Source of the DNA: Stutzerimonas stutzeri
GTDB lineage: Bacteria; Pseudomonadota; Gammaproteobacteria; Enterobacterales; Pasteurellaceae
Direction: 5' to 3'
Length of the DNA: 64,000 nt
Assembly (NCBI GenBank): GCA_901420285.1
Contig: CABDVE010000001.1
Coordinates: 1,054,001 to 1,118,000, forward strand
Shown: positions 1-5,399 of the stretch, in pieces
How positions within the stretch are numbered: position 1 is the stretch's first letter
Layout of the letters: each line of letters starts with the position of its first letter
Made by a program: the position numbers and the translations under genes
Notes under the pieces: generated by a model
Told to the model about the DNA's origin: nothing
Database searches by the model: none
What the model saw: only the letters and a program-made list of their open reading frames with translations

Positions 1-738
1 GGTCAAAAAATGATTACCGGCGACATTGATTTCACGGCTTAGACCCAGCCCATAACGAAAACCATGCGCTTTTTGTGGCAAAGATTCTTTGTCTTTTTTA
101 AAACGCAATTTACCTAACAAAATATCTTGTTGAGATGAGGCGTTATTCACGTTATCGGTTTGGGTATATTGCCATTCTACATCCGCTTTCCAGTCTTGGC
201 GTTCTTTCATGGAAGCCAAATAACGCTGAGCAAATTGTTGCATGGGTGGAGATAAATCTGACATTGCCCGCTCAAGTTCAATCGCTGCTTGGTGATATTG
301 TTTATTTTCAAATAGCATCACGCCCAAATCAAAACGTGGATAAGCCAGTTCCGGTTTGTCGTGAAGGATTTTTTGATAAAGCGCAATTGCACCGTTGTAG
401 TCACGCTCTGTCCTCAACATTGCCCCTAGGGCATAACGATATAGCGTAACATCGTACTGAGGTTGCGATTGATAAAGCGGCAACGTTTGTTTCAATATCC
501 CCCATTGTTGTTTTACCACACTATAGTTGATCAGTTTTTCCAATTTAGTTTGGGTATTGTCATTGGGTTCAAATGTCATCGGTGCTGAAAGTGCGGTGGA
601 TTTCTCCTGCGTTTTTATCTGTGGCTCTTCGGTTTTTGGCACAATATTCTTTTCAAAGAAAACAGGCTGTGGTGCTTGGAAGGTTTCGGCTTGAGTAGCT
701 AAGGGAAGTAGAATGATAAAATAGGGAAGTTTTTTCAT
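1..738 (-). CDS. Slam-type surface lipoprotein assembly modulator (N-terminal 246 residues, cut by window edge)
   Basis: The reading frame is open from the ATG complement at 736-738 to base 1. It starts with a signal peptide (MKKLPYFIILLPLATQA). Residues about 60-190 are helical TPR-like repeats (for example YRYALGAMLRTERDYNGAIA and FDLGVMLFENKQYHQAAIEL), followed by the start of a strand-rich region (WKADVEWQYTQTDN). This layout, periplasmic TPRs then an outer-membrane barrel, is that of Slam proteins (DUF560), which move lipoproteins to the cell surface. The neighbouring upstream gene on the same strand is a lipoprotein with a TbpB-like C-terminal domain, the expected client. The barrel lies outside the window. 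A plain TPR porin-like protein is the alternative. Confidence 0.82.
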   Translation of the reverse strand, partial: MKKLPYFIILLPLATQAETFQAPQPVFFEKNIVPKTEEPQIKTQEKSTALSAPMTFEPNDNTQTKLEKLINYSVVKQQWGILKQTLPLYQSQPQYDVTLYRYALGAMLRTERDYNGAIALYQKILHDKPELAYPRFDLGVMLFENKQYHQAAIELERAMSDLSPPMQQFAQRYLASMKERQDWKADVEWQYTQTDNVNNASSQQDILLGKLRFKKDKESLPQKAHGFRYGLGLSREINVAGNHFLT

Positions 739-753
739 AGTCGATTAGAAAGT

Positions 754-785
754 AATGCCGTTTAAACCGAAGTTCAAACGGCATT
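754..785 (-). terminator. Hairpin between the lipoprotein and Slam genes
   Basis: AATGCCGTTT (754-763) pairs with AAACGGCATT (776-785) about 20 bases after the lipoprotein stop and 16 bases before the Slam start. On the minus strand no T-run follows, so it looks more like an attenuator or mRNA 3'-end stabiliser than a full terminator. I infer that it lowers exporter output relative to the client. Confidence 0.5.
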
Positions 786-804
786 TTTATATTAAAGGAA
801 AAGT

Positions 805-2346
805 TTATTTTTGAATTTCACCACGTGTGCCGCCGAAGCCGACTGTATCTTTTCCATCAAGAGAGACTTTACCGCTAATTTCTTCCGCATTTTTACCAAA
901 GAAATCTAAAGAATAAGAACCTGATTTGTAACCTTGGGTTGCACTAGATGAAATACCAGAGCCTGAAATAGAACCCTGTTCTAATGTAATGTTATTTCCT
1001 AAGCCGGTAATAGTTCCTGAGCCTGTTTTATTTGCAAAATTAACATTGTAATCTAGTGCTCCATTATTTTCGGCATCAAATGCTTTACCACTATAATTAG
1101 CTGTTCCTTCTGTTGGAATCGCTTCTAATTTTGTTTTTAGACCAGTAATTTGTACATTCGATAGTTCATTAATACTAGAAAAATTACGAACACCTGATTT
1201 AGTATCTGCAACAATAATTGAATACGGTTGGTTATAGATTGCTTTGCCGGTAGTAATAGTTTCTCGTACTGAATAGCAATGTCCATTTATGCATTGAGAT
1301 GAAGAGCTACTTGATGTTGCATATTGGTTTTGCTTGAGTCCATTACCATATTGTCCATTATAAATTCCTTTAGCATTATTGATGATAAGTGTTTCAAGGC
1401 TAGCTTTTACAGTGTCTTCACTGGAACCTATATTGTTTTTAGCAAAATCAGTCGCTTGAGAATTATTAAGACCTTCAGCAATAGCAAGTTGGGTTAATTT
1501 TTTTACTTTGAGAGAGCGTTGTAAATTAGTTTTTGATACATTGTCTGCATTATTAATGTTATCTTGCGCAAATTGTTTTGCTTCTTCATCATTTAGCCCA
1601 CTATTTTTGGCTAATTCAATTAATTCAGCAGTTTTTTGTGCGATACGAGCTTCTTCGGCTTTACGAGCTTCTTCGGCTTTACGTGCTTCTTCAGCTTTAC
1701 GTGCTTCTTCAGCTTTACGAGCTTCTTCAGCTTTACGAGCTTCTTCAGCTTTACGAGCTTCTTCAGCTTTACGAGCTTCTTCAGCTTTACGAGCTTCTTC
1801 AGCTTTACGAGCTTCTTCAGCTTTACGAGCTTCTTCAGCTTTACGAGCTTCTTCAGCTTTACGAGCTTCTTCAGCTTTGCGTGCTTCTTCAGCTTTACGA
1901 GCTTCTTCGGCTTTACGAGCTTCTTCGGCTTTACGAGCTTCTTCGGCTTTACGAGCTTCTTCAGCCTTACGAGCTTCTTCAGCCTTACGAGCTTCTTCGG
2001 CTTTACGAGCTTCTTCAGCTTTACGAGCTTCTTCGGCTTTACGAGCTTCTTCGGCTTTGCGTGCTTCTTCAGCTTTGCGTGCTTCTTCAGCTTTGCGTGC
2101 TTCTTCAGCTTTACGTGCTTCTTCGGCTTTACGTGCTTCTTCGGCTTTACGAGCTTCTTCAGCTTTACGAGCTTCTTCAGCTTTACGTGCTTCTTCAGCT
2201 TTTTTGGCGTCTGCTACTTGTTGTTGGGTTTGTTCATTTTTAGCAGTCGGTTTGTTATCAACCGTGTTAGAGCCTCCACTACTGCTTCCACAGGCAGTAA
2301 GGGAAAATAAAATTGCTGCTGCAATGGTTGTATTTTTAAAGTTCAT
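805..2346 (-). CDS. Surface lipoprotein with a 31-copy KAEEAR helical stalk and TbpB-like C-terminal domain; likely Slam client
   Basis: The 513-residue product starts with a lipoprotein signal peptide and lipobox (LTAC, Cys19), then a Gly/Ser linker. Residues 49-234 are 31 uninterrupted KAEEAR hexapeptides, a charged sequence predicted to form one long single alpha-helix. Next are two related segments of about 40 residues (beginning ELAKNSGLNDEEA and QLAIAEGLNNSQA). Last is a Gly/Ser-rich strand domain (about 330-513) ending in GKVSLDGKDTVGFGGTRG, typical of the TbpB/fHbp-type barrel of Slam-dependent lipoproteins. The Slam gene follows on the same strand. I infer a surface protein whose barrel is held away from the membrane; its ligand is unknown. 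Frames open on the opposite strand here are a by-product of the repeat. Confidence 0.85.
   Translation of the reverse strand: MNFKNTTIAAAILFSLTACGSSSGGSNTVDNKPTAKNEQTQQQVADAKKAEEARKAEEARKAEEARKAEEARKAEEARKAEEARKAEEARKAEEARKAEEARKAEEARKAEEARKAEEARKAEEARKAEEARKAEEARKAEEARKAEEARKAEEARKAEEARKAEEARKAEEARKAEEARKAEEARKAEEARKAEEARKAEEARKAEEARKAEEARKAEEARKAEEARKAEEARIAQKTAELIELAKNSGLNDEEAKQFAQDNINNADNVSKTNLQRSLKVKKLTQLAIAEGLNNSQATDFAKNNIGSSEDTVKASLETLIINNAKGIYNGQYGNGLKQNQYATSSSSSSQCINGHCYSVRETITTGKAIYNQPYSIIVADTKSGVRNFSSINELSNVQITGLKTKLEAIPTEGTANYSGKAFDAENNGALDYNVNFANKTGSGTITGLGNNITLEQGSISGSGISSSATQGYKSGSYSLDFFGKNAEEISGKVSLDGKDTVGFGGTRGEIQK
1645..2202 (-). repeat. 31 tandem 18-bp repeats encoding KAEEAR
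   Basis: The tract is 558 bp, exactly 31 units of 18 bp. Protein units are identical, while third positions vary (Ala GCT/GCC, Glu GAA, Arg CGT/CGC and others), so sequence is held at protein level. A unit gain or loss keeps the frame, so stalk length may vary between strains. Confidence 0.95.
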
Positions 2347-2478
2347 GTAAGACCTCTGTAATAAATGTAGGATTAAAAAGCAAAAGAATTATAATTTTTC
2401 GCTAATTTGTGTACAATTAACCAATAATTACAGAAGGTTACCGAATTGCGGTAGTTATTTACCTTGCGAGAGTAGAAT

Positions 2479-2886
2479 ATGAAAATTAATGAAAAAATTC
2501 GTCAATTACGTGAACAACACCAATTATCTCAAGAAAATATGGCGGATAAATTAGGCATGTCGGTGACCGGTTATGCCAAAATTGAACGAGGTGAAGTGCG
2601 TTCAAATCTGCCACGTTTGGAGCAAATTTCTGAAGTGTTTGATATGGATATTTGCGAATTGCTTTCTTATGGGGAATCTGAAAAAGTTTATTTTAATAAT
2701 TCAGTCACAGAATCAACAAATTCAAATAATTTCTTATTCGCTGTCGGTAATGATAATTTAGAAAAAGCCATTCAACAATTGCAATTAATTATTTCTCATA
2801 AAGACGAGCTATTGGCACAAAAAGATAAAATTATTCTAGGCTTAGAGCGGGAAATTGCTTTGCTGAGAAATATGCACAAAGCATAG
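2479..2886 (+). CDS. XRE-family regulator with C-terminal coiled coil
   Basis: The 135-residue protein has a Cro/C1-type helix-turn-helix at about residues 4-60 (LSQENMADKLGMSVTGYAKI), an Asn/Ser-rich linker, and a heptad-like tail (about 92-130, KDELLAQKDKIILGLEREIA) suited to oligomerisation. It is divergent from the lipoprotein gene, with 132 bp between starts. The intergenic region has inverted elements (ggttacc...gggtagtt type near 2436-2465) that could be its operator. I infer control of the lipoprotein-Slam operon, itself, or both. A close paralogue lies at 42420-42815. Confidence 0.8.
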   Translation: MKINEKIRQLREQHQLSQENMADKLGMSVTGYAKIERGEVRSNLPRLEQISEVFDMDICELLSYGESEKVYFNNSVTESTNSNNFLFAVGNDNLEKAIQQLQLIISHKDELLAQKDKIILGLEREIALLRNMHKA

Positions 2887-2926
2887 TAACGAGCTGACAA
2901 TAACAAGAAAAAATAACTAAAAAGAA

Positions 2927-2968
2927 GACCGCACTTTGATCCTATCAATCAAAGTGCGGTCGTTTTTT
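2927..2968 (+). terminator. Inverted uptake-signal pair acting as terminator
   Basis: GACCGCACTTTGAT (2927-2940) and ATCAAAGTGCGGTC (2948-2961) form a 14-bp stem followed by CGTTTTTT. It ends the XRE transcript. Both arms contain the uptake-signal core. Confidence 0.9.
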
Positions 2969-2977
2969 ACGATGTTT

Positions 2978-3435
2978 TTACGCTGCGTGTTTTGGTTGTT
3001 TAAACACAGTGACTTCAGGCGCTTGGCCTGTGAATTTTTCTACTTGTACGATACAAGTATTTGGCGAGTTACCTTGTGCCAGTTTGGACGTGCCTTCGTC
3101 GCGGGTAAGCACGTTCGGGCAGCCGTTTTTGCACAATGGTTTTTCGCTTTCGCCTAAATCCATCGGGTCATACCACGCGCCTTCGTGAAGCGCCACCGTG
3201 CCTTTGATGATGTTTTCCGTCACCACGGCACCGGCAAGCACTTGTCCGCGTTTGCTGTGAATGCGCACGATGTCGCCGTCTTTAATGCCACGCGCTGCGG
3301 CATCTTCCGGGTGAATCATTACCGGCTCACGATCGTTGACCGCGTATTTTTGGCGTAGAGAAGTGTGCGCCAATTGGCTATGCAAGCGGTAATACGGATG
3401 CGGTGTTACCAAGGCGAGTGGATATTGCCCTGCAT
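2978..3435 (-). pseudogene. torZ: 3' remnant of a TMAO/biotin-sulfoxide reductase gene (torZ/bisC type)
   Basis: About 145 residues match the C-terminal molybdopterin-dinucleotide-binding domain of TorZ/BisC reductases: [16 protein letters not shown], then GDIVRIHSKRGQVLAGAVVT and a tail with CPNVLTRDEGTSKLAQG. The intact enzyme is about 800 residues, so the N-terminal three quarters, including the catalytic site, are absent. Homology can be followed slightly past the only Met, to LALVTP, where the frame is lost and sequence runs into a cytochrome fragment. Not functional as a reductase. Confidence 0.85.
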
Positions 3436-3591
3436 TTCATACCAAACATCTTTTTGAGGAACATGACAGTCGGCACACTCCGCACGAATGCCTTTTGCAT
3501 TAGAAAAATGGCTGGAACTTTCCCATTCTTCCTTAGGCTGATTCATAGAATGGCAACTGATACAAAATTCTTGCGAGCTGGTTTTGTGCAT
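3406..3591 (-). pseudogene. torY: Fragment of a NapC/TorY-type multihaem cytochrome c
   Basis: The 61-residue frame carries two haem-binding motifs, CISCH and CADCH, in the spacing of the NapC/NirT/TorY quinol dehydrogenases ([10 protein letters not shown] ... [13 protein letters not shown]). An in-frame stop sits two codons before the first Met, so the membrane anchor is missing. After the second motif the sequence runs into torZ-like coding in another frame. In Haemophilus torY lies just upstream of torZ, so one deletion removing the rest of torY and most of torZ, plus a frameshift, explains the locus. Confidence 0.8.
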
Positions 3592-3611
3592 GACAAATTA
3601 CGCTCCCCATA

Positions 3612-3656
3612 AAATAGCACCGCATTGAACTCTTGAAATAGCACCGCATTGAAACG
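3612..3656. repeat. Two direct copies of the AATAGCACCGCATTGAA motif
   Basis: Two copies in the same orientation, 26 bp apart, upstream of the torY fragment. This is the second high-copy motif of the window. The rest of 3592-3866 has no gene and holds the presumed pntAB promoter. Confidence 0.85.
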
Positions 3657-3866
3657 AATAAATTGGCCCGGGACAATGTTGTTTGCCGCATTTTCCTTCA
3701 TTTTTATGCAACCTATCGCAATATCTTGTAAAACCAGTTAAAAAAGCCTACCTCTTTTAAAGGGAACAGTGATAGAGTGAATGCCGCTTGACGTTTGTCA
3801 TTTACAGGAAAATGGGGCAGCCCATTTCGCAATCATCAACCCAATCATCAAACAGAGGGAAACAGT

Positions 3867-5399
3867 ATGTTAATTGGTGTACCAAGAGAGCTGCTTGATA
3901 ATGAAAGCCGTGTGGCGGCGACGCCGAAAACGGTTCAGCAGATCTTGAAATTGGGCTTTGACGTGATCGTGGAACACGATGCAGGTTTTAAAGCGAGTTT
4001 TGAGGATCAAGCATTTTTAGACGCGGGCGCGAAAATTGGCACGGCAGCTGAAATTTGGCAAGCGGATATTATCTTTAAGGTGAATCCGCCAACGGATGAA
4101 GAAATTGCCCAAATGAAAGAGGGCGCGACGCTTGTGAGCTTCATTTGGCGTATGCAAAATCCGGAGCTCATGAAAAAACTGACCACGAAGAAAATCAATG
4201 TACTTGCGATGGATGCGGTGCCGCGGATTTCACGTGCGCAAGCTTTGGATGCGCTTTCCTCTATGGCGAATATTTCCGGTTATCGTGCGGTGATTGAAGC
4301 CGCCCACGAGTTTGGCAGTTTCTTCACCGGTCAAATTACCGCGGCAGGTAAAGTCCCGCCGGCTAAAGTGTTGGTGATCGGTGCAGGCGTCGCGGGCTTG
4401 GCGGCAATCGGTGCGGCAAACAGCCTTGGTGCGATTGTGCGTGCTTTTGACTCTCGTCCTGAAGTGAAAGAGCAAGTGCAAAGTATGGGGGCAAGCTTCT
4501 TAGAAATCGATTTCAAAGAAGAAGGCGGCAGCGGTGATGGTTATGCGAAAGTGATGTCGGAAGAATTCAACCGTCGTGCAATGGCGCTTTATGCAGAACA
4601 AGCCAAAGAAGTGGATATTATTATCACCACCGCAGCGATTCCGGGTAAACCGGCGCCACGTTTAATTACCAAAGAAATGGTGGATTCCATGAAACCGGGT
4701 TCGGTGATTGTGGATTTGGCGGCAGCAACGGGTGGTAACTGCGAATATACCGAAGCCGGTAAAGTGGTGACCACAGAAAACCAAGTGAAAATTATCGGTT
4801 ACACCGATTTCCCAAGCCGTTTGCCAACGCAATCTTCTCAACTTTACGGCACAAACTTAGTGAATTTATTGAAACTGTTGTGCAAAGAGAAAGATGGCAA
4901 CATCAATATTGATTTTGACGATGTGGTATTACGTGGTGTGACCGTGGTGCGTGATGGGGAAGAAATTCCGCCAGCACAAATCCAAGTATCCGCTCAACCA
5001 AAACAAGAAGCAAAAGCGGCGCCGGCAGTCGAGAAAAAAGAAGCCAAACCGGCTGATCCGCTCGTGAAATACGGCGTAATGGCAGGTGTCGGCGTGTTGT
5101 TTCTGTGGTTAGCTTCTGTGGCACCGGCAGCCTTCTTATCACACTTCACCGTGTTTGTATTGGCTTGTGTAGTGGGTTATTACGTAGTTTGGAACGTCAG
5201 CCATGCACTTCACACCCCATTAATGGCGGTCACCAATGCGATTTCCGGTATTATCATCGTGGGTGCGTTATTGCAAATCGGTCAAGGCAACTTCTTTATT
5301 AGCGCACTTGCCTTTGTGGCAATTTTGGTGGCAAGCATCAATATTTTTGGTGGCTTCCGCGTGACACAACGTATGTTAGCAATGTTTAGAAAAGGTTAA
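3867..5399 (+). CDS. pntA: NAD(P) transhydrogenase subunit alpha
   Basis: Inner-membrane proton-translocating transhydrogenase subunit that binds NAD(H). The ATG at 3867 (AGAGGG at -14 to -9, then [20 protein letters not shown]) gives 510 residues, the E. coli length; a longer upstream extension has no support. The N-terminal AlaDH/PNT domain includes the dinucleotide fold [17 protein letters not shown]. An Ala/Lys linker (about 395-420) leads to four membrane segments at the C-terminus. It is followed by pntB after 10 bp, so the two form an operon. Confidence 0.97.

Follow-up and report, generated by a model that had tools for sequence, protein, structure and literature searches.

The stretch of DNA analysed here (hereafter the window; 64,000 nucleotides, G000:C1:1054001-1118000) belongs to a Pasteurellaceae genome of 1.93 Mb and carries near its start, on the minus strand, a gene for a putative surface lipoprotein of 513 residues and, 66 bp downstream on the same strand, a gene for an exporter of the Slam type. 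Behind its signal peptide and lipid-bearing cysteine, the lipoprotein consists of a linker, a stalk of tandem KAEEAR hexads, two small helical modules and a C-terminal head resembling the Neisseria factor H-binding protein (fHbp), and a divergent XRE-type helix-turn-helix (HTH) regulator gene faces it from the other strand (Table 1). The original prediction, made from the letters of the window alone, had paired the lipoprotein with a Slam and called for the full exporter gene. Once sequence from beyond the window edge is added, that gene is complete at 473 residues and adjoins the lipoprotein gene, and its product has both the TPR N-domain (PF24575, 78.6 bits) and the entire barrel domain (PF04575, 213.3 bits, positions 1-288 of 288). 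A genome-wide search with PF04575 found the window Slam alone above the cut-off (one other match scored 17.3 bits against a cut-off of 22), and PF01298, searched at E up to 1, found the window client as its sole match; thus, the two proteins are probably exclusive to each other in this genome.

A lipobox, LTA-C19 followed by Gly20, is seen in the translation (read by eye rather than with a signal-peptide predictor), as the original prediction had it, and glycine at the +2 position, rather than the Lol-avoidance aspartate, would favour sorting to the outer membrane. A linker of 29 residues (20-48) separates Cys19 from 31 consecutive exact KAEEAR units (residues 49-234), which bears out the 186 residues of perfect repeat counted earlier. 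At the DNA level, Tandem Repeats Finder describes this array as 18 bp x 31.1, with 95% match and a score of 943; the long plus-strand open reading frames (ORFs) that overlie it are by-products of the repeat. The DNA unit occurs in six versions, and all 25 of their 25 differences from the consensus unit are synonymous, falling at four third positions, while by the genetic code just 12 of the 54 possible single changes of the unit would be so. Taking four independent origins, the minimum for four variable sites, the probability of finding synonymous changes throughout is about (12/54)^4 = 0.002; because all 25 differences are synonymous, the stalk looks selected and more than a matter of chance. 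Neighbouring units are also alike (lag-1 identity 0.959 versus 0.932 in shuffles, with 1 of 2000 shuffles as high), and such clustering of like units is the mark of local duplication. The 18-bp unit allows length to change in frame, as foreseen, and repeat number does differ between species, from 5 to 31 hexads across three related proteins of the same architecture: the H. seminalis stalk has 30 hexads (28 exact and two IAEENR) in an order of variants unlike that of the window, and the R. pneumotropicus stalk has five, three of them exact.

The sequence of the stalk is well suited to a single alpha-helix, being A/E/K/R-rich and seamless with dense charge pairs at i+3/i+4. By its count of such opposite-charge pairs, KAEEAR is one of 12 arrangements, out of 180 possible for its letters, that tie for the best score. 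Over 18 residues the hydrophobic moment is about zero, leaving no hydrophobic face or seam. AlphaFold2 (AF2) was run twice, on the 280-residue C-terminal part and on the full protein, each time with three sequences. In the full-length model helix is predicted at residues 36-155 and 164-248, the break at 156-163 being given no meaning, with block confidence values (pLDDT) of 75-93 over residues 51-250, but 47-68 at 141-170. Thus, the single helix of about 28 nm originally proposed holds as far as suitability of sequence goes, but that figure (27.9 nm) is a contour length and an upper bound; with the persistence length of about 15 nm given for single alpha-helix (SAH) domains in PMC5347031, the root-mean-square (rms) span would be about 21 nm.

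Beyond the stalk, the AF2 models are helical over residues 234-332 (block pLDDT 64-91 as far as residue 323), where a family hidden Markov model (HMM) recognizes two copies of one module of about 40 residues; this agrees with the two helical repeats noticed at the outset, and no Pfam family matches the three-helix module above its cut-off. The head, of about 180 residues, matches FHBP_C (PF08794) over residues 409-494 with 76.4 bits (cut-off 28.1; E 3.2e-21) and TbpB_B_D (PF01298) over residues 410-505 with 27.4 bits (cut-off 26), and also gives a sub-cut-off match to HpuA. A sequence search of the PDB matched fHbp chains over residues 364-503 (best E 3.8e-8). These matches place the head closer to fHbp than to TbpB; of the TbpB-like barrel first suggested, the barrel-type C-terminal domain stands by family profile, whereas the family named for it gives way to fHbp.

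Searched with the 280 residues of the modules and head, 54 of 140 genomes of the family gave a match, the source genome included. Fifty-eight regions including the window were fetched, strongest matches first (weaker rows, and G082 as a near twin of G074, were omitted), and hold 59 client ORFs; a Slam related to that of the window, as detected by phmmer with the window Slam at E 1e-10, by which distant Slams are missed, is present in 36 of the 58. In these clients the region from the Cys, located by a simple text pattern that may be wrong in single cases, to the conserved C-terminal ~150 residues spans 68-623 aa (median 186), with the values for L057 and L088, which are truncated by contig ends, being minimal. 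By thresholds set ad hoc for this analysis, a charged helix of at least 40 residues occurs in 25 of the 59 clients and one of at least 100 in 14, while three have a proline-rich stretch of at least 20 residues; at least three perfect tandem stalk units are found in 15, and the three-helix module in 13, in one to five copies, some of them weak. Contrary to the original opinion, long stalks are therefore not unusual among Slam clients of this family, as these 25 show and as does PmSLP-1 of P. multocida, with its 94 N-terminal residues predicted to be disordered (PMC12080921).

The tandem units comprise the hexads KAEEAR, KAEETR and EEAKKA, charged units of 12, 13, 15 and 16 residues, and two that contain proline; the 16-residue unit of G005 (L053) forms a perfect array of 224 aa, exceeding that of the window. 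Compared with permutations of their letters, the 12-, 13- and 16-residue units do well for charge pairing, with fractions of 0.000 to 0.029; those of the hexads (0.044-0.072) lie near the floor set by unit length, and the proline-containing units have no charge pairing. The latter belong to the clients of L060 (G048) and L074 (G136), where proline-containing tandem repeats (VQPQPQPNPKPD; PKPISEEKKDM), possibly extended rods, stand instead of a helix; in the fetched region of L074 the phmmer search detected no Slam at E 1e-10. The longest sampled client, that of L061 (G039), has 801 aa, with an N-region of 623 aa that includes 81 residues of charged helix and five matches to the module HMM, three of them above 20 bits. 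In L071 (G095), the Slam (2706-4112) lies in two frames (281 + 187 aa), which may reflect either a damaged exporter gene or an error in the sequence; the client next to it has 190 residues of charged helix.

Identities of Slam and client were compared across the 35 loci with an unbroken Slam, L071 being left out. They are only moderately correlated (Spearman 0.41 for the last 95 residues of the client and 0.37 for the head piece, i.e., the ~50 residues preceding these; not reached in any of 2000 permutations). Stalk length is hardly correlated with Slam identity (0.11, p 0.057). Several closely related Slams stand beside dissimilar clients: between the window and G022 (L056) identity is 0.93 in Slam and 0.38 in the head piece, and between the window and G074 (L070) 0.90 and 0.34. 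The corresponding values are 0.96 and 0.40 for G005 and G001 (L053, L075), of which the former client has the 16-residue-repeat helix and the latter a coiled-coil-like sequence with modules, and 0.96 and 0.43 for G091 and G094 (L067, L069), with N-regions of 268 and 68 aa, respectively. Some close Slams do have like clients (0.99 and 1.00 for L088/L095; 0.93 and 0.83 for L075/L081). From these comparisons stalk and head appear to be exchangeable on one exporter.

The histories of the two genes can be set against a gene that we take to be gyrA, in which the window genome is 98% identical to G129, a complete genome of its own species; for three congeners and two genomes of the genus Haemophilus the figure is 83-84%, and for G022 it is 74%. 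In the Slam DNA, by contrast, identity is 92.0% with G022 but 70.5% with H. seminalis. The client shows the opposite affinity, being closest to that of H. seminalis (80% aa identity over 280 residues) and unlike that of G022. Slam and client are thus, by sequence, of differing histories, for which movement of the Slam between genera would be the simplest account. A recombination junction within the barrel, taken from one long blastn match, was considered and dropped: segment by segment, identity to G022 is only 0.63-0.77 over residues 420-499 versus 0.92 in the Slam. A YjbR-domain gene downstream of the Slam (L003 4451-5233) has a transfer signal resembling that of the Slam, its DNA being 88% identical to G022 (gyrA 74%) and just 93.5% to the conspecific G129 (gyrA 98%). 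Cores of the uptake signal, a 9-mer presumably of the Haemophilus type, flank the cassette in facing pairs (L003 5251/5276 and 8928/8952), with two single copies in the Slam; they fit natural transformation and are proof of nothing.

Taken together, these observations are best read as a dedicated Slam-client pair in which an fHbp-like head is displayed on a single alpha-helix after export by Slam, and we consider this probable. The lipoprotein would be exported, lipidated at Cys19 and carried to the outer membrane, where the adjacent Slam would recognize its C-terminal barrel and flip it to the surface. Residues 49-234 would form in solution one monomeric, salt-bridged alpha-helix leading into two small helical bundles and serving as a semi-flexible tether that holds the head about 20 nm off the membrane. 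The head would most likely capture a soluble host protein, such as a complement regulator or similar, and the length of the stalk may alter between strains through unequal recombination of the 18-bp units. A wider reading seems to us evenly poised: that the Slam clients of the Pasteurellaceae are a lipid-anchored class of extendable surface proteins, in which one near-constant Slam exports exchangeable clients. Stalks of unrelated origin (single-helix repeats of 6, 12, 13, 15 or 16 residues, proline-rich rods, coiled coils and chains of three-helix modules) would have been taken up again and again to set how far the fHbp-like head reaches, and clients, stalks and Slams would have been reshuffled between genera.

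Several results weigh against the pair being a long-reach display system. The NCBIfam model slam_lipo (NF041636) scores 78.1 bits, 2 short of its cut-off of 80. The pLDDT of the head is below 50 almost throughout in both AF2 models, built on three sequences, and hence it is the family profiles that support the fold of the head; searches by Foldseek and VIA-align with the C-terminal model, with its low-confidence head, returned generic matches and were uninformative, no fHbp chain being in the 50 rows shown by either, at a head confidence too low for inference. For the stalk, AF2 is prone to predict repeats of this kind as helical anyway, and the 15-residue units found in five relatives are not distinguished from permutations in charge pairing (0.13-0.16). 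A Slam lies in the fetched region of 24 of the 25 clients with a charged helix of at least 40 residues (including the window, and L071 with its split gene) versus 12 of the 34 others; this speaks for the pair, but nearness to the query and undetected distant Slams confound the comparison.

The alternatives concern the place of the protein, the nature of its stalk and the role of its head. The charged helix might cross the periplasm in the manner of the helical domain of TolA, keeping the head inside; the composition is like that of the TolA helix (tolA_full matches at 10.4 bits, below its cut-off), and the width of the periplasm, about 28 nm, would suit such a span. Yet the C-terminal domain is fHbp-like and has a dedicated Slam as its neighbour, and relatives keep the head but differ widely in the length of what precedes it (68-623 aa), an ill fit to a fixed gap, so that a periplasmic lipoprotein is very improbable. 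It is unlikely, if less remote than this, that the repeat is a roleless, tolerated by-product of slippage: blocks of identical units do speak of recent local duplication, and the number of hexads ranges widely among three related proteins, but their divergence within the window is synonymous-only, unrelated units occupy the same place in relatives, and the H. seminalis stalk is similar in length with its unit variants differently ordered.

Only marginally more credence attaches to a stalk that is real but forms a disordered or a dimeric coiled-coil spacer. Charged repeats are often mistaken for coiled coil (PMC5347031) or disorder, and the N-terminal residues of PmSLP-1 are themselves predicted to be disordered (PMC12080921). 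Against this, KAEEAR has no hydrophobic seam, is a hexad rather than a heptad and has a near-optimal salt-bridge order; designed heptads rich in A/E/K form single helices, though those designs richest in Arg aggregated (PMC5347031). The most serious competitor, though still an unlikely one, makes the head a metal- or heme-uptake co-receptor of the TbpB/HpuA kind rather than a complement binder. TbpB_B_D is indeed over its cut-off and HpuA gives its sub-cut-off match, but the best sequence matches are to fHbp, and no TonB-dependent receptor is present among the ORFs listed beside the pair, as judged from translations read by eye. Display of an fHbp-like head on a single helix thus remains the preferred reading.

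Table 1. Features of the lipoprotein-Slam locus (window positions)
Feature	Position	Strand	Basis
Putative surface lipoprotein, 513 aa (signal peptide 1-18, lipid Cys19, linker 20-48)	805..2346	-	ORF, Pfam, NCBIfam, AF2
Lipoprotein parts by residue: stalk 49-234; two helical modules ~235-332; fHbp-like head ~333-513	805..2346	-	
KAEEAR codon units, 31 exact (residues 49-234), 18-bp tandem repeat, putative single alpha-helix	1645..2202	-	
Two ~40-aa three-helix modules (residues ~235-332)	1351..1644	-	AF2, family HMM
C-terminal FHBP_C / TbpB_B_D region (residues 409-513), proposed Slam-recognized barrel	808..1122	-	Pfam, PDB matches
Slam exporter, N-terminal 246 of 473 codons in window; whole gene L003:5317-6738	1..738	-	
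Hairpin of 14 pairs with UUCG loop, between the lipoprotein stop codon and the start of Slam; possible attenuator	754..785	-	
Promoter-like TGTACA-16-TATAAT upstream of lipoprotein	2388..2415	-	
Operator-like dyad TACCG-AATTG-CGGTA between HTH gene and lipoprotein gene	2439..2453	none	
Divergent XRE-type HTH regulator, 135 aa	2479..2886	+	

The surroundings of the pair offer candidate control elements. Of 18 other client regions, 6 have the HTH gene next to the client-Slam pair. Among 7 aligned loci, 5 have a perfect dyad at the corresponding position, and L051 has matching changes in both arms; the dyad is a candidate operator, through which the XRE-type regulator may control display. The promoter-like scan is at chance level (6 found, 4.7 expected), and both hexamers are visible in 4 of 6 aligned relatives (L048, L049, L050 and L051). 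A hairpin follows the client stop in all four loci examined, with differing loops (z -6.2 in the window); because there is no good T run on the client strand, it may thin transcription into the Slam. An RNA thermosensor like that of the lph gene of H. influenzae was considered and is unsupported, the 5' region in the window folding no better than shuffles.

The locus is also a variable site within the species. The one conspecific genome searched, G129, lacks a 4.4-kb cassette and with it the lipoprotein gene, its counterparts of the flanks L003 1658-5262 and 9641-10000 being separated by 115 bp; the cassette was either gained in the source genome or lost from G129. Window positions 2978-3591 and about 2842-2956 of L047 hold what is left of two genes, for a molybdopterin reductase and a NapC-type cytochrome, which occur as long ORFs in R. 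pneumotropicus (L108 2032-5640). R. pneumotropicus DSM 21403 belongs to this genus too, as judged from agreeing match coordinates of L038 and G123. As the scraps of the gene pair that remain in the source genome differ from those in G129, it is probable that the site was rebuilt on more than one occasion. A repeat of about 24 bp (core like AATAGCACCGCATTGAA) lies beside the client-Slam locus at 3612-3663 and is scattered through G129, singly and in short arrays, with dozens of matches. Elsewhere in the source genome, a second contig of 3313 bp (L066, G000:C2) has matches of at least 99% to 11 Haemophilus plasmid records, one of which contains at least 80% of it.

Were the stalk truly a single helix, its 31 identical hexads would make it a very regular natural SAH, and Slam would have to pass or tolerate a charged helix of 186 residues ahead of the barrel, which bears on how cargo moves through the exporter. 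Where the exporter stays nearly constant while the heads and stalks next to it are exchanged, selection for reach beyond lipopolysaccharide or capsule becomes directly testable. Vaccine work on Slam clients is affected as well, since much the same Slam can stand beside clients that differ in head and in stalk length.

Among known systems, Neisseria fHbp shares with the client the FHBP_C family and the PDB match over residues 364-503, whereas the first ~330 residues of the window protein are unmatched; we know of no helical stalk or modules in fHbp. Within the Pasteurellaceae, protein H (PH, gene lph) of H. influenzae is a factor H-binding lipoprotein that is homologous to Slam-dependent surface lipoproteins and whose gene cluster includes a Slam (PMC5449769); its likeness to the window client, as a Pasteurellaceae lipoprotein with a Slam nearby, is one of description, and its RNA thermosensor (PMC8084184) is without an evident counterpart in the window. 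PmSLP-1, with published Slam-dependent display, binds factor I and consists of a handle and a barrel (PMC12080921); it resembles the window pair as a Pasteurellaceae Slam-client pair with handle, C-terminal barrel and a long N-terminal region, and differs in having its Slam upstream rather than downstream, and 94 residues of predicted disorder in place of the 186-residue perfect repeat (PMC12080921). A published proposal has the C-terminus targeting Slam and the N-terminus varying with function (PMC12080921; PMC8406197). The open-licence literature searched yielded no mention of KAEEAR and no report of a Slam client on a single-helix stalk or of stalk types exchanged beside one Slam, although absence is thereby unproven; excerpts of PMC10075479 on PmSLP yielded no passages on linkers or repeats.

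By analogy, the nearest idea for the stalk is that of the Periscope Proteins, in which near-identical tandem repeats set the distance of the head and are tunable by recombination (PMC8201768, PMC9704523). Their repeats fold as domains and their Gram-negative cases include inverse autotransporters (PMC8201768, PMC9704523), whereas the window client would present a single helix on a lipid anchor, with a 6-residue unit presumably too short to fold alone. The stalk likewise shares with SAH domains an A/E/K/R-rich, seamless composition and i+3/i+4 charge pairs (PMC5347031); these are best studied in eukaryotic proteins such as myosins, and here the repeat is a hexad on a probable bacterial surface protein. 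Slam-client pairs are an established kind, of which the long-reach client is a variant, and the pattern of interchangeable stalks is the more interesting aspect.

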